Shown: positions 6,747 through 21,279 of the stretch, piece after piece | How positions within the stretch are numbered: the stretch's first letter is position 1 | Layout of the letters: each line of letters begins with the position of its first letter | NCBI GenBank assembly: GCA_018400535.1 | Contig: JAGYMQ010000077.1 | Span: 1 to 42,649 of the forward strand | Direction of reading: 5' to 3' | Source: Candidatus Cloacimonadota bacterium | GTDB lineage: Bacteria > Cloacimonadota > Cloacimonadia > Cloacimonadales > TCS61 | DNA length: 42,649 bases | Notes under the pieces: model-generated | What the model was told of the DNA's origin: nothing | Databases searched by the model: none | The model's input: the letters and a program-made list of their open reading frames with translations, nothing else | Made by a program: the position numbers and the translations under genes

Positions 6747-7079
6747 TCAATATTTTTCAATATCGCCATGATCAGCGAAATAAAGATTATTTACCTGCCA
6801 TCTTTTTATTCTGCAAAAACCCCAGGGGAAATAAATTCCTACCGTGATGATCGTCAAAATGATCACGAGTAGAAAAGTGCCAAAAATTCCTAAACCTGTT
6901 CCTCTGAATACTAACTGTCTGCCATCAATAAACGTGCGTTCTGCGATCCATTTTTGTCTTGCTACATAAGCCCAAGGCCAAAAAAGTCCTGCCGTCAAAA
7001 CTGTTAGCAAATATGTCCAGATCACTAACCAAATGTAACTCAGTCCTTTCCCTTTGAATTCGAATTTTCCTGTCGGTAT
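6747..7079 (-). CDS. DUF898/YjgN-like membrane protein, apparent AUA start
   Basis: Two tandem units are visible, each with a 'F.GxG' strand, a hydrophobic helix and a 'PWxxxRxKxW' motif. The first has 'FEFKGKGLSYIW...LFWPWAYVARQKW' and the second 'LVFRGTGLGIFG...IYFPWGFCRIKRW'. This is typical of DUF898/YjgN-like proteins. The ORF track starts at GTG 7025, which would cut the first unit in half. The frame stays open upstream and an AGGAGG at 7090-7085 points to codon ATA at 7079 (or 7082). No ATG, GTG or TTG is suitably placed. Either a rare AUA start is used or one base is a mutation or sequencing error (ATA for ATG). Length is 110 residues with two membrane helices. It is the second gene of the sigma-54 operon. 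Confidence 0.7.
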   Translation of the reverse strand: MPTGKFEFKGKGLSYIWLVIWTYLLTVLTAGLFWPWAYVARQKWIAERTFIDGRQLVFRGTGLGIFGTFLLVIILTIITVGIYFPWGFCRIKRWQVNNLYFADHGDIEKY

Positions 7080-7115
7080 TATCTCCTCCTAATTTATTTC
7101 CCAAATTTTCTCATC

Positions 7116-7472
7116 TTAAATATGCCCCCCTTCCTCGAACCCCTTCAAATGATTTTTTAATTCACTAAGATCAAATTTAGTTTCCAGTTTGATGTAATTT
7201 GCCGTTTGAATAGTTGAGAAGAGATCCTTGAATTGTTTTTCAGCATGAACCAGAATTTTAATATTTTGAAAATTTTTGTTAAAATATTCCAATATCCCAA
7301 TGTCAGTTAATGAATGAATAAAAATAATGATAGCATCGATTCTTCTTCTATTAATGATCTTGATGGCTTGCTCCAGATCTTTTGCCATAAAAAATCTATG
7401 ATGCAGTTTTTGGGCAAATTCCTGCATCTCTGCCTTTTCTAAATTCGTCTTATCGATCACTAATATACTCAT
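7116..7472 (-). CDS. degenerate response-regulator receiver domain (pseudo-receiver)
   Basis: The 118-residue protein looks like a stand-alone receiver fold. It has 'ILVIDKT' at the position of the first strand, then 'DAIIIFIHS' and 'YIKLETKFDLSEL', where the last resembles the 'KPF' strand. The key acidic residues are missing: only one Asp (D7) remains of the acidic pair, and the phosphoacceptor position is Phe51 by alignment with the neighbouring regulator. It should therefore not be phosphorylated and may act through binding. GAGG precedes ATG 7472. It is the first gene behind a predicted sigma-54 promoter and lies just downstream of an NtrC-type regulator gene. The fold assignment is by eye; other Rossmann-like folds are possible. 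Confidence 0.65.
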   Translation of the reverse strand: MSILVIDKTNLEKAEMQEFAQKLHHRFFMAKDLEQAIKIINRRRIDAIIIFIHSLTDIGILEYFNKNFQNIKILVHAEKQFKDLFSTIQTANYIKLETKFDLSELKNHLKGFEEGGHI

Positions 7473-7493
7473 TTTTTCCTCGTATTGTTATCA

Positions 7494-7510
7494 AGCATTT
7501 TAAGTGCCAA
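7494..7510 (-). promoter_or_regulatory. predicted sigma-54 (-24/-12) promoter of the pseudo-receiver operon
   Basis: The minus strand reads TTGGCACTTAAAATGCT. It has the GG (-24) and GC (-12) doublets exactly 10 bases apart and a full TTGGCAC block. The predicted start of transcription is near 7484, leaving a short leader that still contains the ribosome binding site of the 7472 gene. Three inverted-repeat sites lie 65-210 bp upstream, where an NtrC-type activator would bind. Confidence 0.75.
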
Positions 7511-7574
7511 CTAGCTCATCTCTCTTTATAACAATAGCTTAGTTAATTATAGAGTCAGCTCAGACTAACAAATA

Positions 7575-7590
7575 TTCTCAAAAACGAGAA
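7575..7590. promoter_or_regulatory. inverted-repeat activator site 1 (TTCTC-N6-GAGAA)
   Basis: TTCTCAAAAACGAGAA has perfect 5-bp arms. The flanks (AATA...ATAA) match those of site 3. It lies about 90-105 bp upstream of the predicted transcription start near 7484, the usual range for sigma-54 enhancers. Confidence 0.6.
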
Positions 7591-7688
7591 ATAATGTTAA
7601 TTTTTCAAATCGGTAAAATTTGTTTGTTTTTTTTATCTTCTTTTTCTATAGACTCTTACGAGGAAATTTTCATTAACTGCTCAATTAT

Positions 7689-7704
7689 TTCTCATAATCA
7701 AGAA
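7689..7704. promoter_or_regulatory. inverted-repeat activator site 2, degenerate
   Basis: TTCTCATAATCAAGAA fits the TTCTC-N6-GAGAA pattern with one mismatch in the right arm. It is 18 bp from the start of site 3, so the two form a tandem pair. Confidence 0.45.
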
Positions 7705-7706
7705 TA

Positions 7707-7722
7707 TTCTCAATAACGAGAA
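7707..7722. promoter_or_regulatory. inverted-repeat activator site 3 (TTCTC-N6-GAGAA)
   Basis: TTCTCAATAACGAGAA has perfect arms and differs from site 1 at one base. It lies in the gap between the regulator gene (stop at 7740) and its presumed target operon, about 225-240 bp upstream of the predicted transcription start. Confidence 0.6.
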
Positions 7723-7739
7723 ATAAAATAGGCCAAAAT

Positions 7740-9113
7740 TTATTTAGCTGTTAATGATATTTTATATTTTTTTAATCTGCGTGTCATTGCATCATTTTTG
7801 ATACCAAGAAGTTTTGCTGCTCTTCCTTTATGTCCAGCTGTTCTCTCCAATGCTTTCAGGATCAATTGCTTTTCATTTTTATCCAGATTCAAGTCTTGCT
7901 CTTCGAAATTTTCTTCTTTCTCTAATAAAGTGGGAAAATGCTGCAAATACAAATAGCCATTTTCCGATAAGATCAGCGCATGTTCGATCATATTTTTGAG
8001 CTCTCTCACATTACCAGGGAAAGGATAATCCAGCAATTTTTCTTTTATTTCAGATGATAAAGGCTGGATTTTTCTTTTCATATTTTTGGCGAAAAAACCG
8101 ATAAAATATTCGGTCAGGATGGGAATATCCTCTTTCCTTTTGCGTAGCGGTGGGATAATAAAATTAAATCTATTCAATCTATCGAAAAGATCAGCGCGAA
8201 ATTTTCCTTCTTTGACCTGCTTTTTGATATCATGATTTGTGGCAGCAATAATGCGGACATCCACTTCAATTTCCTGATGACTACCGATCTTTCTGATCTT
8301 TTTATCTTCTAATACTCTCAGTAATTTTGCTTGCAAATTTAAAGACATATCGCCGATCTCATCCAAAAATAATGTGCCGTGATTTGCTGTTTCAAAGCAA
8401 CCAGCTTTGTCCTCGAAGGCTCCAGTGAAAGCACCTTTTTTATGTCCAAAGAATTCGCTTTCAAAAAGATTATCTGCGATCGACGAACAATTTATCGGAT
8501 AAAAAATATTATTTTTTCTGGAGCTGGAACAGTGAATTGCCCTGGCAACCAATTCTTTTCCTGTTCCACGCTCACCTTGGATCAAAACAGAAGTGGAATC
8601 TGTCATTGCCAGTTTCCTGATGCGAGTCAACAAATTCATGACCGTTTTACTTTTTCCCACAATTTTGTAACCGAATTTTTCATCCAGTAATTTGGAAAGT
8701 GCGTCATATTTCAATTCAAGTTGTTTGATCTTTCCCATTTTTTCAGAGAAAATTTTTGTGCGCATGATCGAGTTCCTGATAGATTCAGGAAGGAGCGGTT
8801 TTTCCAGAAAATCAGCAGCACCTTTTCGCAAGGCAAGCAACACATTTTCTTTGTTGCCTTCTGCTGTCATTATAATCACTTCGGTTTCAGGAAAATCAGT
8901 TTTGATCTCTTGTAAAAAATCGAGTCCATTTTTATCGGGCAATATAATATCCAGGAAAACAAGATCGATTTTCTCTGCTTTTATCAACTGCTTTGCTTCT
9001 CCAGCAGTTTCTGCCAACATAGTCGAATAACCCAAGAAACGTAGAGTTTCTAGTGTTTCTAATAAAAAATTTTTATCATCATCGATAAGCAATATTTTCA
9101 GATTTTTTTCCAT
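7740..9113 (-). CDS. NtrC-family sigma-54-dependent response regulator
   Basis: Three domains are visible in 457 residues. The N-terminal receiver has acidic residues D11-D13, phosphoacceptor D55 ('FLDIILPD') and the conserved Lys in 'LEKPL'. The AAA+ sigma-54 activator domain has Walker A 'GERGTGKE', a canonical 'GAFTGA' loop and Walker B 'GTLFLDEIGD'. A Fis-type helix-turn-helix is at the end ('GHKGRAAKLLGIKNDAMTRRLKK'). It is expected to activate sigma-54 promoters when phosphorylated by the kinase encoded immediately upstream (9201-11435, same strand). A predicted sigma-54 promoter with inverted-repeat sites follows the gene, so the downstream operon is the natural target (inference). AAGGTGA precedes ATG 9113. 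Confidence 0.93.
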   Translation of the reverse strand: MEKNLKILLIDDDKNFLLETLETLRFLGYSTMLAETAGEAKQLIKAEKIDLVFLDIILPDKNGLDFLQEIKTDFPETEVIIMTAEGNKENVLLALRKGAADFLEKPLLPESIRNSIMRTKIFSEKMGKIKQLELKYDALSKLLDEKFGYKIVGKSKTVMNLLTRIRKLAMTDSTSVLIQGERGTGKELVARAIHCSSSRKNNIFYPINCSSIADNLFESEFFGHKKGAFTGAFEDKAGCFETANHGTLFLDEIGDMSLNLQAKLLRVLEDKKIRKIGSHQEIEVDVRIIAATNHDIKKQVKEGKFRADLFDRLNRFNFIIPPLRKRKEDIPILTEYFIGFFAKNMKRKIQPLSSEIKEKLLDYPFPGNVRELKNMIEHALILSENGYLYLQHFPTLLEKEENFEEQDLNLDKNEKQLILKALERTAGHKGRAAKLLGIKNDAMTRRLKKYKISLTAK

Positions 9114-9200
9114 TGTTTCACCTTTTTGATTTTTTTTCAGTGAATTTTACATCAGATATAAAAATTTTTTCTTATACTTGAGAGAAAAGACAAATATTTC

Positions 9201-11435
9201 TCAAATTCTATTTAAAATAAGGCGAAAGATCGTGAATTTTTCCGGTTCACTTTCTACCTCGATCTTTCCTTTCATATCTTGCACAAATTGTTCGACAAGC
9301 GGCAGTGCCAATCCTGTTCCAACCTCTTTTGTGGAATAGAACGGTTCGAAGATCTTTTTTTGATCATTTTTTGCGATTCCGATACCGTTATCTTCAATTT
9401 CCAGAATAAGTTTATCTTTCTTCGAAAAGGTTCTGATCATTATCTTTTTTGCAAATTTTCTTTCAGGATATTTTGCATTTTTTTCCTGAATTGCATCGAT
9501 CGCATTGGAAACAAAAGTTAATAGAATATGATTGAAATTATCTTTGTTACCGATCGCAAAAAGTTCGTTTTCAGCCAGTTTTAATTCTAATTCAATGTGA
9601 TATTTTTTCATTTCGAAATCAAGAATGGAACACGTTTTTCGCAATAAATGATTAACAGCTAATTTATGCAAACTGATCCTGATATCTTCTCTGATATATG
9701 CTCGCAGATTTTCATAATATTTTTGGATTTCACCATTATAGCTGCGCAATTGTTTGATCTTTTTTCGTAAATAAGTTTTATCCAGATCATCATCCATCGA
9801 AAGTTCGATATTGCTCAGGTTCATATCAATATTGATCGAAAGCGGTCTGATCTTGTGCGAGAAGCCAGAAGCGATGCGACCAAAAATTTCCATTCTTGAT
9901 TTGCGTTCCAAAAGCAAATTTTGCTGTGAATTTTTTAAATTGATCTTATAATAGATCGCCGCAGCAATTGATATTATAGCGATCAATAAAATTATAAAAA
10001 AAAGAAGCAGAAATTTTTGTTTGGAAATTTGGTTAGTTTTAAATTCATTCTCTTTTTTTAACAATTGATTTTCCTTTTCTTTTTCTTTGGTCTCATATTT
10101 CAATTGCAGATCGTGGAATGTCTTTTCGTTATCCAAAGCGTTCAGGCTGTCTTTCAGCGCGAGTAACTTTTTCTGGAAAGTAAACGCACTGGCAAAATCT
10201 TCCAGGTCTTCATAGATAATGATAAGATTCTTATAACTGTCTGAAATGTTTTTTATCAAATCGTATTCTTCTGCTAACATCAAGCTTTTTTGGAAATATT
10301 TTTCAGCTTCTTTTTTATCTCCTTTTTTACTGCTAATAATTCCCAGATTCATATAATTTTGTGTGATGCCTTCTTTATCTTCCAATTTTTGGTTGATTTC
10401 GAGAGATCTATCCAGATATTTTTTTGCCAGATCATATTTTTCAAAATCAAGATTTAATACAGCAATATTATTCAACGACCGTGCTAAGCCATATTGATCA
10501 CCGAGTTCTTCTTCCATAACCAAAGATTTTTCTGCGTAGAAAAGTGCCTTATCATAATCATTGATCTTTTTGTATAATAGCGAAACATTGTTGTAATCAA
10601 AAGCCAGCCTCCGCTTAAGTCCGATCTTTTTTTCAATCTCGATCGCTTGCTGAAAATACTTCAGAGCATTATCATAATTTCCCATACCATAATTGGAAAT
10701 ACCGAGATTGGAATAGATCACTTCTCGATCATTAAAATAATCGTTCTTTTCGGATAAGTTTAATGCTTTCAGGAAATATTCAAGGGCGTCAGAATGTTGC
10801 TTCTTCATATCATGCAAACGTCCGAGCGAAACATAATTACGGATAAGCAATTCATCGTTTTTCATCATTTTTGTCAAAGTTATATTTTGTTGGATAAATT
10901 GCTCAGCAGTCACATAATATCCTTTTTCCAGATAGATATTACCAATATTTTTCAGATTGTATGAAAGCCCCAAACTATCCTTGATCTCCTGATTTAAATC
11001 TTTCGCGTTTAGATAATATTCCAAAGCTTTGTCCTTTTCGCCCAGAATATTGCAGATCGCACCAAGATTATTCAAAGAAGCTGAATAAGAGTTTTGATCA
11101 TGATTATCTTCTGCATAGTGAAGTATTTCTTCAAAGAGTTTTTTTGCTTGTGAGTATTCACCAGAGAAATAATGTGCCATTGCCAGATTTTTGGTGGATT
11201 TTTGTTCGCCCTGGGAATATTTGATTTTCCGGGAAATCTCCAATGCTCTTTCCGCATATTCTTTTGTCTTTTGTAGATCTTTCTTCAGAAAGCTTTTCGA
11301 TAATTTATTCAGGACATCGACTTTTTCGATCCTTTCAGCATTTTCCAGAACAATTAAGAGACTATCTATTTCTGCATTTTCAGCTAAAAGAGAACCTAAA
11401 ATAAAAAATATGAATAATGAAATTATTTTTTCCAC
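9201..11435 (-). CDS. TPR-repeat sensor histidine kinase
   Basis: The 744-residue protein starts with a signal-like hydrophobic segment, then about eight TPR repeats (about residues 40-430, e.g. 'ALEYYLNAKDLNQEI', 'ALKYFQQAIEIEKKI') that should lie outside the inner membrane. A coiled coil and one membrane helix (about 476-498) follow. The kinase part has the presumed phosphoacceptor His527 in 'GFSHKIRPLSI', an N box 'SNAIDAI', G1 'DNGIGI' and G2 'GTGLAL'. The H-box is atypical: the acidic residue usual after His is Lys. GTG 11435 is the start, preceded by AGGTGAGG. The partner is the NtrC-type regulator 87 bp downstream. The TPR part suggests sensing of protein or peptide partners (inference). 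It is paralogous in layout to the divergent kinase at 11678. Confidence 0.88.
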   Translation of the reverse strand: MEKIISLFIFFILGSLLAENAEIDSLLIVLENAERIEKVDVLNKLSKSFLKKDLQKTKEYAERALEISRKIKYSQGEQKSTKNLAMAHYFSGEYSQAKKLFEEILHYAEDNHDQNSYSASLNNLGAICNILGEKDKALEYYLNAKDLNQEIKDSLGLSYNLKNIGNIYLEKGYYVTAEQFIQQNITLTKMMKNDELLIRNYVSLGRLHDMKKQHSDALEYFLKALNLSEKNDYFNDREVIYSNLGISNYGMGNYDNALKYFQQAIEIEKKIGLKRRLAFDYNNVSLLYKKINDYDKALFYAEKSLVMEEELGDQYGLARSLNNIAVLNLDFEKYDLAKKYLDRSLEINQKLEDKEGITQNYMNLGIISSKKGDKKEAEKYFQKSLMLAEEYDLIKNISDSYKNLIIIYEDLEDFASAFTFQKKLLALKDSLNALDNEKTFHDLQLKYETKEKEKENQLLKKENEFKTNQISKQKFLLLFFIILLIAIISIAAAIYYKINLKNSQQNLLLERKSRMEIFGRIASGFSHKIRPLSINIDMNLSNIELSMDDDLDKTYLRKKIKQLRSYNGEIQKYYENLRAYIREDIRISLHKLAVNHLLRKTCSILDFEMKKYHIELELKLAENELFAIGNKDNFNHILLTFVSNAIDAIQEKNAKYPERKFAKKIMIRTFSKKDKLILEIEDNGIGIAKNDQKKIFEPFYSTKEVGTGLALPLVEQFVQDMKGKIEVESEPEKFTIFRLILNRI

Positions 11436-11677
11436 AACCTCACCTATCAGGACAAAAATTTAAAAATATATCTGTTTAGAAAAAATTGGAAGTTAATATT
11501 GTCAAAGAAAAAAAAGGAAAGTAGAAAAGCGGGAAGAATTTGCAATGTTGAATTTTTTCTATTTTGAGTTATTTGCAAAGATAAAAAATTCTATCACGAA
11601 TATTTTTATAAATTGACGAATGAGAAACTGTTCATTCAATGCCCTACAAAAGAAAAATGTTAATGGAAAGCTCGATT
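11436..11677. promoter_or_regulatory. divergent intergenic region between the two sensor kinase genes
   Basis: A/T-rich gap of about 200-240 bp from which both kinase/regulator modules are read outward. I see no -24/-12 element and no copy of either inverted-repeat motif, so the regulators do not appear to control their own operons from here. A TTGACA on the minus strand lacks a convincing -10 at normal spacing. Confidence 0.4.
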
Positions 11678-13699
11678 ATGTATTGTTCAAATTTAAAAAA
11701 GATATTGATCATCATGATTTTGTTGATCGGAAACATTTCGTTTATACATTCTGACGAAGATCACCAATATAAAGAAAGGTTCTTGCAGATGATCGACAGC
11801 GCCAGAGAATTGAACAATGAGAATAAAATTGAAGAGAGCATATCCAAATATGATGAGGCAATTACTTTTGCGGAAAAATCTGGTCTGAACAAAATTCTGC
11901 AAAAATATTATCTGGAAATTGCAAATCTTTGTTTTGATAATCTGCGAAATGAAAAAGCGATCAGTTACTATTCAAAATGTTTGTCTATTACAGATAAAGA
12001 AAAAGATAATGTGATTTTGAATTGTCTGAATTCTCTTGGAGCAGCTAATATCAAGATCGGAGAATATGAAAAAGCAATCGCCTATCTTTTGGAAGCTCTG
12101 CAACTTATTGATACACCAAAAACACAGCTTCATTCAAAGATATTAAATGGATTAGGCGTGGTGCATATAAAAATTTCTGATCATGAAACTGCGTTACGCT
12201 ATTTGAGTTCAGCTTTGGCTTTGATACCCGCTTCAGAAATTTCATCTACAAAAGCTTATCTTCTCAATAACATCGGAATTTGTTATCATAATCTGGATAA
12301 AAATGAAAAAGCAGCAGACAATTATAATCGAGCAATTGCGATCTGGAGAAAGATCGAAGACAAAAAAGGGCTTGGAATGACCTATTCCAATCTATCCACG
12401 ATTTTTAAAGAAGCAGGAAACAATCAGCAAGCAATAGAATATTTAAAAAAATCTTTAGAATATAAAAAAAATGAAAAATCTTCTGAATCAATTATTTTTT
12501 CTTTTCTGAATTTAGGTGAAATTTACATCCAAAGCGAAAATCTGGAAGAAGCAGAATTCTATTTGAAACAGGCTTTGCTAAAAGCAAAAAAATCCGATAA
12601 TCTCGATCTGAAAAAATCAGCTTTTCTACTGATGGCAAGATTTTATGAAGCTCAAAAAAATGATGAACAAGCCTTGAAACAGTATAAAAAATATATTGAG
12701 ATAAAAGATTCTCTGCTCAATAAAACGATCAGTAAACAGATCCGTGAATTGCAGATCAAATATAATTCTGAACAACAAAAGCAGGAAATCGAACGCTTCA
12801 AATTGGAACAGGAAAAAAATCGTTTGATCAGAACCAGATTGATCCTTATTATTATCCTTATAATATTGATCCTACTTTTCTATTATTATCAATTTCGGAC
12901 AAAGAAAAAGACAAATCAGAAATTGGAAAAAGAGATAAATATCAAAACAGCAGATTTGATGAAAACAAATATTGAACTGGAAAAAGAGATCGCTGAACGC
13001 AAAAAAATGCAAGCTGAATTGATAAAATCGGAAAGACTTGCCGCAATCGGTGAAATGGCGTCGATCGTCGCTCACGAGATCAGAAATCCGATAACTGCTT
13101 TGAGATCAACTGCACAATTTTGTGAAAATAATTTTACCTCGATCTCCGAAAATAAAATGAAAAAAATGATGAATATTTTCACAGAAACGACTGATCGCGT
13201 AGGGAAAATATTGAAAGATCTTTTGGATTATTCCAAACCAGAACCTAAAAATTTTATTGTTATTGATCTGGTCGATCTGCTCAAAAAAAATATTTCTATG
13301 GTCGAAGACAAATGCCAGAAGAATGAGATCGATATCTGTCTGAATACAAATCGTGCGAACATCAAAGCAAAAATCAATGTAGAACAATTCAACGGAGCAA
13401 TTTTGAATCTGCTTTTAAATGCGATCGAAGCTATCGAAAAAAAAGGAAAATTGCAGATCAATCTAATCGAAAAAAAATCCAAAATAATTTTGGAAATCGA
13501 AGATAATGGCTGCGGTATCGATCAAAAACTGCTCGATAAAGTATTCCAACCCTTTTTCACTACAAAATCGACGGGAAGCGGTTTGGGACTGGCATACGTG
13601 CAAAAAATAGTTAATTTTCACAATGGCGAAATAAGAATTTTCAGCAAAAAGAACAAAGGAACAAAATTCCAAATAATCTTAGGTGGAGAAAATGAATGA
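11678..13699 (+). CDS. TPR-repeat sensor histidine kinase, paralogous module
   Basis: The frame opens at ATG 11639. I prefer ATG 11678, preceded by GGAAAG, because it begins a compact export signal ('MYCSNLKKILIIMILLIGN'); neither start has a strong ribosome binding site. TPR repeats fill roughly the first half (e.g. 'ALRYLSSALALIP', 'AIEYLKKSLEYKK'). A membrane helix ('LIIIILIILILLFYYYQF') and a coiled coil follow. A canonical HisKA box 'AHEIRNPITALRS' holds His479 in ORF numbering. The ATPase domain has 'NLLLNAIEAI', 'DNGCGI' and 'GSGLGLAYV'. It overlaps the next regulator gene by 8 bp, so the two form one operon. It has the same plan as the divergent kinase but with an intact H-box. Confidence 0.9.
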   Translation: MYCSNLKKILIIMILLIGNISFIHSDEDHQYKERFLQMIDSARELNNENKIEESISKYDEAITFAEKSGLNKILQKYYLEIANLCFDNLRNEKAISYYSKCLSITDKEKDNVILNCLNSLGAANIKIGEYEKAIAYLLEALQLIDTPKTQLHSKILNGLGVVHIKISDHETALRYLSSALALIPASEISSTKAYLLNNIGICYHNLDKNEKAADNYNRAIAIWRKIEDKKGLGMTYSNLSTIFKEAGNNQQAIEYLKKSLEYKKNEKSSESIIFSFLNLGEIYIQSENLEEAEFYLKQALLKAKKSDNLDLKKSAFLLMARFYEAQKNDEQALKQYKKYIEIKDSLLNKTISKQIRELQIKYNSEQQKQEIERFKLEQEKNRLIRTRLILIIILIILILLFYYYQFRTKKKTNQKLEKEINIKTADLMKTNIELEKEIAERKKMQAELIKSERLAAIGEMASIVAHEIRNPITALRSTAQFCENNFTSISENKMKKMMNIFTETTDRVGKILKDLLDYSKPEPKNFIVIDLVDLLKKNISMVEDKCQKNEIDICLNTNRANIKAKINVEQFNGAILNLLLNAIEAIEKKGKLQINLIEKKSKIILEIEDNGCGIDQKLLDKVFQPFFTTKSTGSGLGLAYVQKIVNFHNGEIRIFSKKNKGTKFQIILGGENE

Positions 13700-15044
13700 T
13701 GCAAAAATTTTGATCGTAGATGATGAAGAACACATTCTCTTCATTCTCACTGAACTTCTGATAAAACAAGGTTATCAAGTTATCAAAGCAAAAGATGGCA
13801 GAACAGCTTTAAATATTTTTCGGCAAAAACAACCACAGATCGTTTTATTAGATTATAAATTGCCTGATCTCAGTGGAATCGAAATTTTGAAGAAGATCAC
13901 ATCAGATCAAAAATATTCGGAAGTGATCATGATGACAGCGCATGGCAATATTGAACAAGCTGTAACTTCTATGAAATTAGGTGCTTATTATTATTTAACG
14001 AAACCTTTCAATAATGATGAGATCATTTTGCAGATAAAAAATGCTCTAGAAAAGATCAGCTTAAAACAGAAAATAGTTTCTCTTCAAAACCAATTATCTT
14101 CAGCAAAAAAAAATTCTCTTTTGATCGGAGATAGTAAAGCTTTGCATAACATTTTGGAACAGATACAGATCGTGGCGAAGAATGACATTGCAGTTTACAT
14201 TGAAGGAGAAACAGGAACAGGAAAAGACCTGATCGCAAGATCTATTCACGAAAAAAGTGATCGCAAAAAAAATCCTTATGTAGCTGTCGATTGTGGCGCG
14301 ATCCCGCCCACGCTGTTTGAAGCGGAAATGTTTGGTTATGAAAAAGGAGCATTTACCGATGCAAAATTATCTCGCATAGGAAAATTTGAACAAGCAAATA
14401 CTGGTACTATTTTTTTGGATGAGATCACGAATTTATCGCTCGATATGCAAGCAAAGCTGTTGCGCGTCATACAAAATAAAAAAATTTCCAGGATCGGTAG
14501 TAAAAAAGAAATTGCAATTGACGTTAGGATCATTTCTGCCAGCAATCAAAATATCCTGAAAAAAGTAGAAGAAAAAAAATTTCGCAATGATATTTTTTAT
14601 CGTATCTGCGAATTCAAGATCGACGTTCCAGCACTGAAAGAAAGAAAAGAAGATATTCCAATTTTGGTTAACAATTTCATCAAAAAATATGCGATAGAAT
14701 TCCAAAAAAAAGTAGTTGGCATCACACCTGAAGCTCTGCAGAAAATGATCAATTTTGATTGGCCAGGCAATGTGAGAGAACTGATAAACGTGATCAAACG
14801 CGCCGTTTTGGTTTCCAATTCTGATAAGATCGATTGTGATGCGATCAGTTTCATTAATCTCGCTCAGAACGATATCTTTGAGGATAACAATTATTTTGAT
14901 CTTAAAAAAATCGATGCCGAAGCAGACCGTAAGAAAAAAATGCTGATCCAAAGAAAGATCGAAGAATTGAAAGGGAACAAAACTCAAGCTGCCAAAGAAT
15001 TGAAGATCAGCCGCAATAAACTTTATGAACTATTGAATTCATAA
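13692..15044 (+). CDS. NtrC-family sigma-54-dependent response regulator with GAFTDA loop
   Basis: The receiver has D10, D11 and phosphoacceptor D54 ('LLDYKLPD'), and the Lys in 'LTKPF'. The AAA+ domain has Walker A 'GETGTGKD' and Walker B 'GTIFLDEITN'. The sigma-54 contact loop reads 'GAFTDA' instead of GAFTGA. A C-terminal Fis-type helix-turn-helix is seen in 'GNKTQAAKELKISRNKLYELL'. ATG 13692 (with GGTGGAGA upstream) is preferred over GTG 13683. The gene overlaps the kinase stop, so they are translationally coupled. Tandem 20-bp inverted-repeat sites begin 7 bp after its stop codon, and a sigma-54 promoter lies just before the next gene, which is its likely target. It is paralogous to the regulator at 7740-9113. 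Confidence 0.93.
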   Translation: MNDAKILIVDDEEHILFILTELLIKQGYQVIKAKDGRTALNIFRQKQPQIVLLDYKLPDLSGIEILKKITSDQKYSEVIMMTAHGNIEQAVTSMKLGAYYYLTKPFNNDEIILQIKNALEKISLKQKIVSLQNQLSSAKKNSLLIGDSKALHNILEQIQIVAKNDIAVYIEGETGTGKDLIARSIHEKSDRKKNPYVAVDCGAIPPTLFEAEMFGYEKGAFTDAKLSRIGKFEQANTGTIFLDEITNLSLDMQAKLLRVIQNKKISRIGSKKEIAIDVRIISASNQNILKKVEEKKFRNDIFYRICEFKIDVPALKERKEDIPILVNNFIKKYAIEFQKKVVGITPEALQKMINFDWPGNVRELINVIKRAVLVSNSDKIDCDAISFINLAQNDIFEDNNYFDLKKIDAEADRKKKMLIQRKIEELKGNKTQAAKELKISRNKLYELLNS

Positions 15045-15050
15045 TTGTTG

Positions 15051-15109
15051 TTGTTTGATTTTTACAACAATTGTTTGGATTATAAAACAATCTTTCATTT
15101 TATCAACAA
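15051..15109. promoter_or_regulatory. tandem activator sites, TTGTT-N10-AACAA
   Basis: Two directly abutting 20-bp copies are TTGTTTGATTTTTACAACAA (15051-15070) and TTGTTTGGATTATAAAACAA (15071-15090). Both have perfect TTGTT/AACAA arms separated by 10 bases. A third, degenerate copy (15 of 20 matches, right arm intact) covers 15090-15109. They lie 105-165 bp upstream of the predicted sigma-54 transcription start, as expected for enhancer sites of the upstream regulator. A 9-bp stem (15043-15051 with 15064-15072) could alternatively form in RNA, but it is all A/T-rich and has no T-tract. Confidence 0.6.
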
Positions 15110-15186
15110 ATTTTAATTTTATACGAAATTAGAGTATCCAACTGGTATCAAAGAAAATAAACTCCCCAAAAAATTTTTAACTTGGT

Positions 15187-15203
15187 TTGGCATTCCGATT
15201 GCA
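15187..15203 (+). promoter_or_regulatory. predicted sigma-54 (-24/-12) promoter of the secreted-protein gene
   Basis: TTGGCATTCCGATTGCA matches TGGCAY-N5-TTGCA, with GG at 15189-15190 and GC at 15201-15202 ten bases apart. Transcription would start near 15214, just before the GGAGG that serves ATG 15239. Confidence 0.82.
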
Positions 15204-15238
15204 GGCTAAAATGAAAAAAATGTTTTTGGAGGATGTTT

Positions 15239-18200
15239 ATGAAACAAAAATTGATCGTTTTTCTTGTGATTCTATTTTATGGAAGTTTGTTTTCCTTGCA
15301 GACTACAAATTTCACAGAAACTGATGGGATAATTCAGAGTGATAAGATACTTGATGTTTTCTATTACAATACGCAAAATGATAATATTGCAGATAACTGG
15401 CGGACAGATAATTCTCTTAGCTGGTATAATGAGCCAGCAAATCCCAGCGATGAATTCACGGGAACTATAGATAACAATCGCTGGCAATCGATGGGAGATG
15501 TAACGCTTTCTGACGGAATTGTGGAATATTCGGGAAGCTGCTCCTATTCAATTGATGGCACACCAACGAACGGTGCTTTATATTCTCAAGGCAAATGGAA
15601 TTTCAGCGGAGATTTCAATATCCAAATAAGTTACAGCGATTTCGTTGCTGATAATGGAAGTGGGATCAGGCTGGAAATCAAAGATGATGGACTTCCTCAA
15701 AATTATTTTCTCTTCGTGGAAAGAGTCGTGCAAAATGATGGAACACATCAATATTGCCGAAATGACCACAATAATAATTTTGCTTCGGTCAATACTGCAG
15801 CGACCGAAGGAAGATTGCGCATTGAGAGATCGGGCACAAATGTAACGACATATTATGGTTATTGGGACGAAGGTTCTGGCGTGGATGAAGATCGTTGGAA
15901 ATGGACAACAATTGGTTCTGCATTAAATTTCGGTGATCATGATATTTACGTGAAAATTTTCACCGTGGGAACTGATAACGAAAAGTCAGTTGCTGTCGAT
16001 GTCGATAATTTTATCGCTTCATTTTCTGCAGGAAGCTGTAATTTTACTAATCTTGGTAGCAATTCCAGAAGCACAACTAAAGCATTTCCTGAACAAACCA
16101 TTCTTGTTGCAACTGATAAAGGATTAGATATCATCGATGCTTCTGATAACACATTGTGGATGAGGTTTAAAAATTATGATAAAGATCGCAACGATGCTGA
16201 AGATCAAAATATGGTCGTAGATACTTTGAATACGATCTTTGCTTTGAACGGAAGGATCTATTGTGGAGCTTATGAAGGTTATATGGCTGGATTAGGCGTA
16301 ATAGATTTCACTCAGGATAAATGCTGGTTTTATGATTCTCACATTGAAGATGGAACAGGCTGGGATTGTCTGGCTGATATTTCTGAAAGGAATATGCATC
16401 GAGGATGGACAGACAATTCCAGCACCTATACACAGATACAAAGTTATGAAGTTTATGACATCAGTGTAAAAGTGATCGATGATGGTAGAGCAGAAAAAAC
16501 TTTTGTTGCTCTGGGACAAGGTGTGTCTGAAGGTGGTTCTAATTCATCAGTGTGTGTTGTAAATATCGATGATAATTCTGCGAGTTATGACATTATTCAA
16601 GGTTATAGCGATCCAGTGATCTCAGTGGATTTTGGAATAAATGATTATCTCTATTATATGACGAGAAGCAGATTGCATAATTCTTATACAGATTATCAGA
16701 ATTCGGGAGAATTTGTTCCAGATAATTCCGTCTCGATCGCTACGCCGACTGATCGCGTGGGAGCCGAACTGGTTACTTCTGATGCAAATCTTTTTATCGC
16801 TGAAAAAGATATTATCACACCTCTGAATTCTGGGTCTGCTACCAGAAGAGCACTATCAGATTTCTCCATTCAAACCACTTATAATGTTTCTCCTTCTTCA
16901 ATTTTGTGGGGTTCTTCTTCCTGCTCTGCTCTGGCTACAAATAATAATGCACTTTTTATCGCCACGAATCACAGTTCGGAAGGCAGGATCTATGTCGTTG
17001 GATTGACTGCTCCAGACGATGATCAGGTGCGTGGAGAATTTAATTATCCCTCAATTCTCTCATCACCTGATATTGCTGGAATAACTTTTGGTTCTGCAAC
17101 TGATGAAGAAAATCTTTTTGTCTTTTATGGAAACAACTCTGGTTTGACCAGAATTGTTGGCAACGATGCAGAGCTTACTATGCAAGAACCTTTCGAAGGA
17201 GAAATACGTCATCAATTTACTGATGGAAATGCTTTTACCTATGATTTTGCTAATGTCACTTTGACGCTTGATCCTGCTGATGCTCGCGCTGAATATGGAG
17301 AGATAGCTGTCACCCTATATAATGATGCACCAAACGTGCAAAATCCTGATAACGCGATCGAAAGCTGGTTCGAAATCGAGGCAGAAACTGGTTTTGACGC
17401 ATTACCACTTGATGTAAGATTTGAGATCGATGAAACCATCGCTCCTGTCGGATCAGATAATCTAATACTTTTCTCTTCTGAAACTGCTTTACCTGGAAGT
17501 TGGACAACGCATAATGAAGATCCAGAAGTCACTGTCACAGAATGGCATTATGATGAACAACCCTACTACGTTGATTTCCAAACTAATCATTTTTCTGCAT
17601 GGGGAACTTCTAATGGAAGTGGTGATACTCCATTACCAGTCACTTTATCAAATTTCTATGTCGAATTGCATGAAAATCCAATTTTACACTGGATAACAGA
17701 ATCTGAAACAGAAAATGCCTGTTGGAATATCTATCGTAGCATGTCCACAGATTTGGAAAATGCACTTTGGTTGAATAATAATGAAGTTATCGTCGGACAC
17801 GGCACGACAACTATGTCTTCAGAATATGAATATATGGATAATTATCCTATACAAGGTGGAGTTACTTATTGGTATTGGCTGGAATCGATCGATCTCACTG
17901 GAAACAGCGAACACTTTGGTCCAATCCAGTTAAACATCCCTGAAGGTGGTGGTAATGATGATCCACCCACGATTCCCTATGAATTTGGACTCTTCCAAAA
18001 TTATCCTAATCCTTTCAATCCGAACACAAATATTCGTTTTACTTTGAAAAATGACAGTTTTTGCAAATTGACGATCTTTAATATCAAAGGTGAAAAAGTT
18101 TACACTCTCTTTGATGGTCTGGCAAGCAAAAATCAAATCTACAATTGTGTTTGGAATGGAAAAGATGAGAATGCAAAAAATGTTGGCAATGGAATATATT

Positions 18201-18259
18201 TTTATCGTATCGAAACCGATAATTTTATTTCCACAAAAAAAATGTTAATGATCAAATAA
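15239..18259 (+). CDS. large secreted protein with C-terminal FlgD/T9SS-like sorting domain
   Basis: ATG 15239 is six bases after GGAGG and is preferred over ATG 15233; it gives 1006 residues. A signal peptide ('MKQKLIVFLVILFYGSLFS') is followed by a jelly-roll-like region at about residues 60-265 (starting near 'DEFTGTIDNNRWQSMGD'). That region resembles LamG/DUF1349-type sugar-binding modules. A propeller-like central region ('ILVATDKGLDIIDASDNTLW') comes next, then a fibronectin-like segment. The C-terminal sorting domain begins 'FGLFQNYPNPFNPNTNIRF' and ends 'NGIYFYRIETDNFISTKKM'. It should be exported and either surface-attached or released. It sits alone between a sigma-54 promoter and a terminator, directly after the kinase/regulator pair. 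No catalytic motif was recognised. Confidence 0.85.
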   Translation: MKQKLIVFLVILFYGSLFSLQTTNFTETDGIIQSDKILDVFYYNTQNDNIADNWRTDNSLSWYNEPANPSDEFTGTIDNNRWQSMGDVTLSDGIVEYSGSCSYSIDGTPTNGALYSQGKWNFSGDFNIQISYSDFVADNGSGIRLEIKDDGLPQNYFLFVERVVQNDGTHQYCRNDHNNNFASVNTAATEGRLRIERSGTNVTTYYGYWDEGSGVDEDRWKWTTIGSALNFGDHDIYVKIFTVGTDNEKSVAVDVDNFIASFSAGSCNFTNLGSNSRSTTKAFPEQTILVATDKGLDIIDASDNTLWMRFKNYDKDRNDAEDQNMVVDTLNTIFALNGRIYCGAYEGYMAGLGVIDFTQDKCWFYDSHIEDGTGWDCLADISERNMHRGWTDNSSTYTQIQSYEVYDISVKVIDDGRAEKTFVALGQGVSEGGSNSSVCVVNIDDNSASYDIIQGYSDPVISVDFGINDYLYYMTRSRLHNSYTDYQNSGEFVPDNSVSIATPTDRVGAELVTSDANLFIAEKDIITPLNSGSATRRALSDFSIQTTYNVSPSSILWGSSSCSALATNNNALFIATNHSSEGRIYVVGLTAPDDDQVRGEFNYPSILSSPDIAGITFGSATDEENLFVFYGNNSGLTRIVGNDAELTMQEPFEGEIRHQFTDGNAFTYDFANVTLTLDPADARAEYGEIAVTLYNDAPNVQNPDNAIESWFEIEAETGFDALPLDVRFEIDETIAPVGSDNLILFSSETALPGSWTTHNEDPEVTVTEWHYDEQPYYVDFQTNHFSAWGTSNGSGDTPLPVTLSNFYVELHENPILHWITESETENACWNIYRSMSTDLENALWLNNNEVIVGHGTTTMSSEYEYMDNYPIQGGVTYWYWLESIDLTGNSEHFGPIQLNIPEGGGNDDPPTIPYEFGLFQNYPNPFNPNTNIRFTLKNDSFCKLTIFNIKGEKVYTLFDGLASKNQIYNCVWNGKDENAKNVGNGIYFYRIETDNFISTKKMLMIK

Positions 18260-18451: not shown

Positions 18452-18904
18452 ATGGCTGATAAACTAACATTAGAAACCAAAGTTACGGAAATTTACAGAG
18501 CAAGCGCAGAAATTTCGCTGCCTCGTCCCTTGCTTGCTTCCAACATCTCAGCTGGATTTCCTTCGCCAGCCCAAGATTATATCGAAGACAATCTCGATCT
18601 TAACCAATTTTTGATATCTCATCCTGCTGCCACCTATTTCGTGAAAGTGGAAGGCTATTCTATGATCAATGCCGGAATTTATCCTGATGATATTCTGATC
18701 GTGGATCGTGCTGCTGAACCACTTCACAAAAAAATTGTCATCGCGGTTGTCGATGGCGAACTCACCGTAAAACGTCTTTTCAAAGAAAAAAATAAATGGT
18801 TTTTATTGCCCGATAATGATGAATTCACACCGATCGAGATCACGCGAGAAATGGAAGTTAATATCTGGGGCGTTGTAACTTATGCTATCCACAAAATGAG
18901 GTGA
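18452..18904 (+). CDS. umuD: UmuD-type self-cleaving subunit of DNA polymerase V
   Basis: S24-family protease-like protein of 150 residues. The cleavage site is Ala34-Gly35 in 'NISAGFPSPAQDY'. The catalytic Ser70 lies in 'EGYSMINAG' and Lys107 in 'GELTVKRL'. The block 'DLNQFLISHPAATYFVK' is very close to classical UmuD. No DNA-binding helix-turn-helix precedes it, so it is UmuD and not LexA. On DNA damage, RecA filaments would trigger cleavage to UmuD', which joins UmuC. GGAGG precedes the ATG. umuC starts three bases after its stop, so the two are coupled. Candidate SOS operators lie 35-85 bp upstream. Confidence 0.94.
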   Translation: MADKLTLETKVTEIYRASAEISLPRPLLASNISAGFPSPAQDYIEDNLDLNQFLISHPAATYFVKVEGYSMINAGIYPDDILIVDRAAEPLHKKIVIAVVDGELTVKRLFKEKNKWFLLPDNDEFTPIEITREMEVNIWGVVTYAIHKMR

Positions 18905-18907
18905 AGA

Positions 18908-20188
18908 ATGGCAAAAGAGAGAATTGCACTGGTGGATTGCAACAGTTTCTACGCTTCCTGTGAAAAAGTTTTTGCACCACATTTACGAAATAAACCGATC
19001 GGCGTTCTTTCCAATAATGACGGTATTATTGTTGCGCTTTCACCAGAATTGAAAAAATTGGGTGTGAAAAGAGGAACACCAGCGTTCAAGATAAATAAGT
19101 ATTTGATCAAAAAATTTGATATCAGACTTTTTTCTTCCAATTACACGCTCTATGGCGATATGTCTGCCCGTGTGATGAAGACATTGACGCAATTCACTCC
19201 AGAATTGGAAATATATTCTATTGACGAGGCTTTTCTTTCGCTCACCGGTTTTGATCATTTGAATCTCACAGATTATGGAAAAGAGATCAAAAAAATGGTG
19301 AAAAAATGGACAGGCTTACCTGTTTCTGTGGGAATCGGACCGAGTAAAACACTGGCGAAAGTAGCAAATCGTTTTGCCAAAAAACATCGTTTCACGGAAG
19401 GAGTATTTGACATTAGCGATCATCCTGACCGCGAGAAAGTTTTGCGCTGGATCTCAGTAGAAGATATTTGGGGCGTGGGCAGACAATATGCCAAAATGCT
19501 GCGTCGTAATGGAATTACCAATGCTTTCGAACTAACAAAAGCGCCTGACAAATGGATACAAGATAAAATGACAATCGTAGGATTGCGTATGGTGAAAGAG
19601 CTGCGCGGCATTCCCTGTCTTGATCTGGAACTCGATGTTGATCCAAAAAAGGAAATCGTTTCTTCCAAATCCTTCGGCAGAGCTGTCACCTCCTTTCAAG
19701 AAATGAAAGAAGCTGCCGCCGATTATTGCACGCGTGCTGTGGAAAAATTGCGCAGAGACAAACAGGTCGCCTCGCTTTTGATGGTTTTCCTTTCTACAAA
19801 TCGGTTCAAAAATGAACCGCAATATGCCAATTATGCCAGCTTGCATTTACCACTTCCTTCTGCCTATACTCCCGATTTCCTGCACGCAACACACAAAATT
19901 CTCAAAAAGATCTTTCGTCCTGGCTATAAATATAAAAAAGTCGGGATCATGCTGGCAGAGATCACGCATCAAACCAAAGCGCCACTCGATCTTTTCCGTC
20001 CCACGTATCTAGATGATCATCGCAAAATCGTTATGGATTGTATGGACGAGATCAATGAAAAGATGGGCAATCACAAAATGATCTATGCCGCTGCTGGAGT
20101 TTCCAGAAAATGGCAGATGCGACGTGATCATCTAACTCCACATTACACAACAAATTGGCAGGACATTCCCATCGTGCAGGCAAAATGA
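18908..20188 (+). CDS. umuC: translesion DNA polymerase V catalytic subunit UmuC
   Basis: Y-family polymerase of 426 residues, the normal UmuC length. Metal-binding acidic residues are Asp10 ('LVDCNSFYASCE') and Asp106-Glu107 ('YSIDEAF'). Further conserved blocks are 'VLSNNDG' and 'VGIGPSKTLAKVANRFAKK'. The little-finger region and a typical UmuC C-terminus with 'PHYTTNW' are present. It should copy damaged DNA in complex with UmuD'. It sits three bases after umuD and overlaps dinB (TGATG type), so all three are probably made from one damage-inducible transcript. Confidence 0.95.
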   Translation: MAKERIALVDCNSFYASCEKVFAPHLRNKPIGVLSNNDGIIVALSPELKKLGVKRGTPAFKINKYLIKKFDIRLFSSNYTLYGDMSARVMKTLTQFTPELEIYSIDEAFLSLTGFDHLNLTDYGKEIKKMVKKWTGLPVSVGIGPSKTLAKVANRFAKKHRFTEGVFDISDHPDREKVLRWISVEDIWGVGRQYAKMLRRNGITNAFELTKAPDKWIQDKMTIVGLRMVKELRGIPCLDLELDVDPKKEIVSSKSFGRAVTSFQEMKEAAADYCTRAVEKLRRDKQVASLLMVFLSTNRFKNEPQYANYASLHLPLPSAYTPDFLHATHKILKKIFRPGYKYKKVGIMLAEITHQTKAPLDLFRPTYLDDHRKIVMDCMDEINEKMGNHKMIYAAAGVSRKWQMRRDHLTPHYTTNWQDIPIVQAK

Positions 20189-21279
20189 TGAAAAAGATCA
20201 TTCATATTGATATGGATGCATTTTTTGCTGCGGTCGAAATTCGCGATAATCCAGAATATGAAGGAAAACCGTTGATCGTGGGCGGCAAACCGAACAGCCG
20301 AGGTGTTGTTTCCACCTGTTCCTATGAAGCCAGAAAATATGGAATTCATTCAGCGATGCCGAGTTTCAAAGCCTATCAGCTCTGTCCGCATGCTATCTTT
20401 GTGCGTGGCAGATTTGATGCCTATCGCGAAGCTTCGCAGCAGATCAAGGAAATTTTCTTTGATTATACTGATCTCGTCGAACCCGTTTCTATCGATGAAG
20501 CCTATCTTGATGTTACAAAAAATAAAAAAAATATGGCTTCTGCCACAGAAATCGCCAGCGAGATCAGAAAGCGCATCAAGGAGAAAACAAAATTGACGGC
20601 ATCTGCTGGAGTTTCCTACAATAAATTTCTGGCGAAGATCGCTTCTGATCTGGATAAACCAGATGGATTGGTCATCATTCCACCGCATAAAGCCTATCAA
20701 ATTCTGGAAAATTTGCCGATCGGAAAATTTCACGGTATTGGAAAAGCCAGCGAGAAAAAAATGAATGAATTGGGAATTCGAACTGGAAAGAATTTGAAAG
20801 AATGTTCATTATCAGAATTGATCAAACATTTTGGAAAAGTGGGAAGTTATTATTTCAATATTGTGCGCGGTATAGATGAGCGAGAAGTTAAAACAAAAAG
20901 GATCAGGAAATCTTTGGGACACGAGCGCACTTTTAGCAAAGATATTTCCGATATTGCTTCCATGCTAAAGATTTTGGAAAAAATGGCAAAGAAGATCAGC
21001 TTGGAAATGAAAGCAAAAAATTTTCAGGCAAAAACTTTAACTTTAAAGATCAAGTATGCCAATTTTGATTTAATAAGCAGAAGTAAAACGCTTGAAATTC
21101 CTTTTGATAAAGAAAAACCGATCTTTTATCTGGGGAAAAAAATGCTGCTGGAAACTTTGGGTCCCAAATGCAATATCAGACTTCTGGGTCTGACTGTTTC
21201 AAATTTGGTTTGGAATAATGATTCCCGAGATGAGCAGAAACTTTTTTCCTTCTTTACAGACGAGTTACCGGAAATTTGA
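20188..21279 (+). CDS. dinB: DNA polymerase IV (Y-family translesion polymerase)
   Basis: The ORF track starts at TTG 20155 inside umuC, but the conserved N-terminus 'MKKIIHIDMDAFFAAVE' begins at ATG 20188 (or 20185); AGG lies seven bases upstream. Length is 363 residues. Catalytic acidic residues are Asp8 and Asp103-Glu104 ('SIDEAYLDVT'). The steric-gate region 'MDAFFA', 'SYEARKYGIHSAMP' and the helix-hairpin-helix 'FHGIGKASEKKMNELGI' are all present. It is the last gene of the cassette. umuDC and dinB in one operon gives coordinated expression of two different bypass polymerases. A bidirectional terminator follows at 21380. Confidence 0.95.
   Translation: MKKIIHIDMDAFFAAVEIRDNPEYEGKPLIVGGKPNSRGVVSTCSYEARKYGIHSAMPSFKAYQLCPHAIFVRGRFDAYREASQQIKEIFFDYTDLVEPVSIDEAYLDVTKNKKNMASATEIASEIRKRIKEKTKLTASAGVSYNKFLAKIASDLDKPDGLVIIPPHKAYQILENLPIGKFHGIGKASEKKMNELGIRTGKNLKECSLSELIKHFGKVGSYYFNIVRGIDEREVKTKRIRKSLGHERTFSKDISDIASMLKILEKMAKKISLEMKAKNFQAKTLTLKIKYANFDLISRSKTLEIPFDKEKPIFYLGKKMLLETLGPKCNIRLLGLTVSNLVWNNDSRDEQKLFSFFTDELPEI

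Follow-up and report, generated by a model that had tools for sequence, protein, structure and literature searches.

Tandem dyads behind an enhancer-binding-protein gene as the predicted sigma-54 enhancer of a secreted protein in a Candidatus Cloacimonadota bacterium

In a Candidatus Cloacimonadota genome of 2.62 Mb, assembled in 146 contigs, the gap between the gene of an NtrC-family response regulator and that of a secreted protein holds two abutting dyads, and the question raised by this locus is what those dyads serve. The window considered here is the whole stretch of 42,649 nucleotides of contig JAGYMQ010000077.1 that was analysed. A previous sequence-only reading of it had pointed to two adjoining 20-bp repeats with TTGTT/AACAA arms, which are indeed read at 15051-15090, coordinates and counts being right, and to a degenerate third repeat with the same arms, which does follow but keeps the AACAA arm alone. 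We put at about 0.82 the probability that 15045-15238 is the control region of 15239-18259, in which an adjacent regulator is joined to an enhancer of its own, a sigma-54 promoter and a secreted target. Observed directly were the sequences and the distances between them, the protein domains, rpoN and an association across a class of related loci. The features of the locus are collected in Table 1.

Table 1. Genes and candidate regulatory elements of the focal locus
Feature	Coordinates	Strand	Remarks
Sensor histidine kinase	11639-13699	+	Pfam TPR_12 3.6e-35, HisKA 1.1e-11, HATPase_c 4.1e-22
NtrC-family response regulator / bacterial enhancer-binding protein	13692-15044	+	Response_reg 1.6e-29, Sigma54_activat 4.5e-67, HTH_8 3.9e-06
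Dyad 1, TTGTTTGATTTTTACAACAA	15051-15070		TTGTT-N10-AACAA; candidate site of regulator 13692-15044
Dyad 2, TTGTTTGGATTATAAAACAA	15071-15090		Second copy, adjoining dyad 1 at a 20-bp interval (about two helical turns)
Degenerate third copy	15091-15109		Half-site at best
Sigma-54 -24/-12 promoter element, TTGGCATTCCGATTGCA	15187-15203	+	16.4 bits; predicted start about 15214
Ribosome binding site	15228-15232	+	GGAGG, 6 nt before ATG 15239
Target, secreted 1006-aa protein	15239-18259	+	Por_Secre_tail 3e-07; TIGR04183 4e-08, above cut-off

The kinase, in which a signal peptide and a transmembrane segment are recognised by eye from the sequence, and the regulator are encoded in overlapping reading frames. 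All profile matches of the regulator exceed the curated cut-offs and join in one protein a receiver, a Sigma54_activat AAA+ domain and a Fis-type HTH, which bears out the earlier claim that a candidate regulator lies just upstream of the repeats; its stop ends at 15044 and dyad 1 begins 6 bp after it. The genome carries rpoN as a full-length open frame and encodes about 18 full Sigma54_activat proteins. On the other side of the gap, the protein described beforehand as giant and secreted is large rather than giant at 1006 aa, while its secretion is well founded in prediction: the N-terminus is hydrophobic, and a signal peptide together with a C-terminal T9SS sorting domain (TIGR04183, 33.1 bits against a cut-off of 23; PF18962, 31.1 against 27) is what marks type IX secretion cargo. 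A single-sequence AlphaFold model of this protein was uninformative (mean pLDDT 31). Its C-terminal 215 residues (792-1006) recur with about 35-52% identity in well over 100 otherwise unlike proteins of the order, and this part is a predicted lineage-specific extended T9SS tail. Further downstream, 18452-21279 on the forward strand encodes an S24 peptidase and, after it, two Y-family DNA polymerases, of which the first carries DUF4113; by its domains this is a putative umuDC-like pair with a second polymerase in a row.

A near-consensus sigma-54 promoter had also been announced, and the site found merits the description. GG at 15189-15190 and GC at 15201-15202 have the exact -24/-12 spacing and fix the predicted start in Table 1; the element scores highest of the window on both strands, on a matrix self-made from the published consensus, to which the 16.4 bits refer, and it sits in the gap before the gene. 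Relative to this start, the dyad centres (15060.5 and 15080.5) fall at about -153 and -133, in agreement with the distance of some 100-165 bp that had been claimed, within the usual enhancer range (about -80 to -200) and, being 20 bp apart, in helical phase.

Could a pair of similar dyads and a word resembling a sigma-54 site have arisen by chance in AT-rich intergenic DNA? A de novo search of 15045-15187 for a symmetric motif in two copies, blind to the claim, picks the focal repeats (22-mers at 15050-15071 and 15070-15091), with a score matched by 12 of 1000 dinucleotide shuffles (1.2%); the exact dyad was found in two copies in none of 20,000. Recurrence of a 5-bp dyad of any sequence at a fixed spacer is seen in 15% of shuffles, which speaks for chance. 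Among 99 genomes of the order, TTGTT-N10-AACAA stands in tandem (0-14 bp between copies) only once, at the focal locus, and a tandem of the reversed-pattern control is absent from all of them. Single sites are ordinary, 8 in the focal genome versus 7 for the reversed-pattern control, and as possible targets the six further single dyads amount to little: four are intragenic, one has no sigma-54 site nearby, and the sixth has a weak one in the wrong orientation. The arms are rich in A and T, and the one on the left of dyad 1 coincides with the end of a (TTG)3 run, which lowers its information content. Strict sigma-54 words number 11 genome-wide and are mostly intragenic, which makes them a poor regulon predictor when used alone. 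The promoter word before the target is correct in place, strand and spacing. The focal locus by itself is suggestive, not overwhelming, and it is the class evidence that carries the argument; with the arrangement recurring class-wide, chance is an extremely unlikely explanation.

This class was defined by 122 gaps lying 3' of related enhancer-binding-protein genes of the lineage (nearest homologues in 59 genomes, further regions, and the genes of the focal genome), chosen by regulator sequence and not by downstream content, many of the relatives being fragmented assemblies. Using a single fixed threshold, a sigma-54 site was called at most 350 nt behind 39 of the 122 regulator genes, in comparison with 0-2 when any of six wrong spacings was imposed, none on the reverse strand and a mean of 1.4 in shuffles, the other 83 regulators having no strong site behind them. 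In other phyla the corresponding figure was 7 of 65 gaps, against 2.8 in shuffles. For the dyads, a single-palindrome test per gap is too weak in AT-rich DNA, and a two-copy test was used instead. The best two-copy dyad in the 39 positive gaps exceeded shuffles by a mean z of 1.34, and in 13 of them its score was reached by at most one shuffle in 20. In 20 of 39 gaps the distance between the two copies was 19-22 or 30-34 bp, versus 9.3% in shuffles, with a mode of 21, which the focal 20-bp spacing fits; counted per cluster of related DNA-binding domains, these bands held 9.1 of 17 against 1.6 expected (p 6e-6), p-values that are optimistic, the bands having been picked after the two-copy results were viewed. 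The succession of regulator, dyads, sigma-54 site and target is repeated in relatives and is present about six times in the focal genome. By simple hydropathy and motif rules, 23 of the 39 classified targets begin with a signal peptide, the others often being receivers. The arrangement is thus conserved as a class, though the TTGTT tandem itself is seen at the focal locus alone.

The position of the repeats bears on another explanation, already raised by the sequence-only reading as a possible refutation, in which they work at the RNA level only, folding into a hairpin or attenuator-type structure that would stabilise or terminate the kinase-regulator transcript at its 3' end. Their start 6 bp after the stop codon suits such an element, and an AU hairpin can be drawn from them, but the folding energy is no better than that of shuffles (z -0.7 for 81 nt and -1.7 for 51 nt), no terminator-like site was found and the repeats have no Rfam match. 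Across the class, 77% of first dyads start no more than 40 bp beyond the regulator stop, versus 42% in shuffles; in 16 modules chosen for clearer dyads the position of the first dyad shifts with that of the promoter (slope 0.60, p 5e-4), which is how an operator would behave, unlike an RNA element at the 3' end. With dyads that follow both the promoter and, as described next, the DNA-binding domain, an RNA role for the repeats is quite unlikely.

Which protein would then occupy the dyads? When gaps are compared in pairs, their dyads become more alike as the identity of the regulators' C-terminal 45 residues increases (rho 0.29; Mantel p<0.002 with 600 permutations), and a mirror-symmetric control score gives a rho of 0.03, so that the correlation is not accounted for by common descent of the gap DNA. 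Dyads that follow the DNA-binding domain are most simply taken as the binding sites of the adjacent regulators. The focal cross-gap scores are unremarkable on their own, and binding of the focal repeats by the focal regulator, for which class behaviour and position argue, is probable. The dyads might instead belong to a different protein, such as another sigma-54 activator, a repressor or a nucleoid protein of the HU/IHF type, the adjacent regulator acting elsewhere. The genome offers candidates in its many Sigma54_activat proteins and two HU/IHF-family genes, and the third repeat departs from the IHF consensus at a single position. Against this, dyad type varies across the lineage together with the adjacent regulator's DNA-binding domain, and other modules of the focal genome have other dyads: TTCTCGTTWTTGAGAA twice behind 7740-9113 in the focal window, TGAACGATWTCGTTC twice on contig C93, and sites of the TGGTC...GACCA type on contig C117. 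Moreover, the class has no excess of IHF-like sites (29 versus 31 in shuffles), and an IHF site in the third repeat was rejected on that ground. Occupation by a protein other than the adjacent regulator is accordingly unlikely.

The regulator itself calls for mild caution in one respect, namely that its loop reads GAFTDA in place of GAFTGA. FlgR, the sole sigma-54 activator of Campylobacter, has GAFTDA (PMC3162934), and the variant has been accepted as functional in Desulfovibrio (PMC4641369); by analogy, the loop would be compatible with function. Ten regulators in the set have GAFTDA, and a strong sigma-54 site lies behind the focal one only (0 of 9 others). GAFTDA was also considered as the mark of an altered -12 element, an idea that was rejected in view of the lack of co-variation.

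Conservation of the exact focal dyad can be judged at class level only, because the regulator lacks a close orthologue: its nearest homologues in the genomes searched are 53% identical at best, and the TTGTT tandem is absent from 98 relatives. One such homologue (53%), in genome G030, has TTGTACC-N6-GGTACAC and TTGTGCC-N6-GTCACAA 21 bp apart directly behind its stop. In genome G008 we find the only protein that matches most of the target's length (44% over residues 2-821), with no regulator gene before it on its contig and with the genome's single GTACC-N6-GGTAC about 200 bp before its start, in front of the target and not behind a regulator, as an RNA element of the regulator transcript would be. 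The GTACC-N6-GGTAC dyad is thereby common to the G008 target upstream region and the G030 regulator gap; the -24/-12 site downstream of it in G008 is weak (8.6 bits). This coincidence, spotted post hoc, is compatible with a link between regulator and target that is conserved although its site drifts. Some close homologues of the regulators in relatives (L018 and L019) have downstream sites with TTGT and not TTGC at -12 (TGGTACAAGACTTGTA and TGGAACAATTATTGTA), possibly a weaker promoter variant.

The window also contains a divergent second module of the same design on the reverse strand (7116-11435), with a TPR kinase (9201-11435), a regulator (7740-9113), dyads at 7707-7722 and 7575-7590, and a sigma-54 site, TGGCACTTAAAATGCT, at 7509-7494 that precedes a 118-aa protein (7116-7472), which matches Response_reg at an E-value of just 0.059. 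A small receiver or degenerate receiver-like protein comes first behind several sigma-54 promoters, those of 7116-7472, L068, L103, L134 and L152. Adjoining 7116-7472 on the same strand, a frame at 6770-7115 with a clear DUF898 match (2e-14) lies outside the listed ORFs of at least 100 aa, and no ATG was seen at its expected start.

For the steps of phosphorylation, binding and looping, and for the direction in which control would run, the sequence suggests the following course at the focal locus. The kinase would sense a signal and phosphorylate the regulator, whose dimers would occupy the two abutting dyads, about two helical turns apart and some 130-155 bp upstream of the start. Once bound, the regulator would oligomerise into an AAA+ ring, and this ring would loop to the RNA polymerase-sigma-54 complex at TTGGCA-N6-TTGCA and drive formation of the open complex, from which the T9SS cargo protein would be made. 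Such a unit would be self-contained, its enhancer lying directly behind its own regulator gene and no other such tandem occurring in the genome. The textbook enhancer-binding-protein arrangement that had been proposed therefore stands as regards domains, rpoN, promoter spacing, dyad distance and recurrence in relatives, with binding as its predicted part.

The analysis assigns a candidate regulator, operator and promoter to an uncharacterised secreted protein and indicates that the sequence following such a regulator gene is often readable as that regulator's operator. In a broader proposal, to which we give even odds, a lineage cassette (kinase, enhancer-binding protein, tandem dyads, sigma-54 promoter, and secreted protein or small receiver) has been duplicated and given new targets many times in each genome, with changes of the dyad accompanying those of the recognition helix. 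If this is true, the cassettes are a natural library for reading the DNA-recognition code of the Fis-type HTH domains of enhancer-binding proteins; as many regulators have their own site within about 200 bp, the specificity of the family would be predictable and testable in a reporter host.

Parts of this picture are already known. The focal system resembles those of the NtrC/AtoC-type Ia enhancer-binding proteins (Francke et al. 2011, PMC3162934) in its receiver, AAA+ and Fis-type HTH domains, in the RpoN encoded, and in palindromic sites that lie about 100-165 bp ahead of a -24/-12 promoter; it differs from them in the GAFTDA loop, in a new site sequence and in an enhancer directly behind the regulator's own stop. 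Local sigma-54 regulons were described in Desulfovibrio vulgaris, with many enhancer-binding proteins, many of which have their own motif by a co-localised promoter (Kazakov et al. 2015, PMC4641369), as is also the case here. Most of the classified one-component regulators of that species lie in the sigma-54 operon or divergent from the promoter, and one has the promoter downstream (PMC4641369), whereas in the present lineage the downstream layout recurs, with tandem dyads about 21 bp apart. Control of the bacterial exterior by sigma-54 is equally known, for exopolysaccharide, flagella, lipopolysaccharide and lipoproteins (PMC3162934); the targets found here likewise look mostly secreted or of the envelope, but they are signal-peptide proteins, T9SS cargo among them, and small receiver proteins. 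What goes beyond these precedents is the stereotype shared across the lineage, with its mostly signal-peptide or receiver targets and its pair of dyads, which follow immediately on the stop of the regulator at a distance of two or three helical turns from each other.
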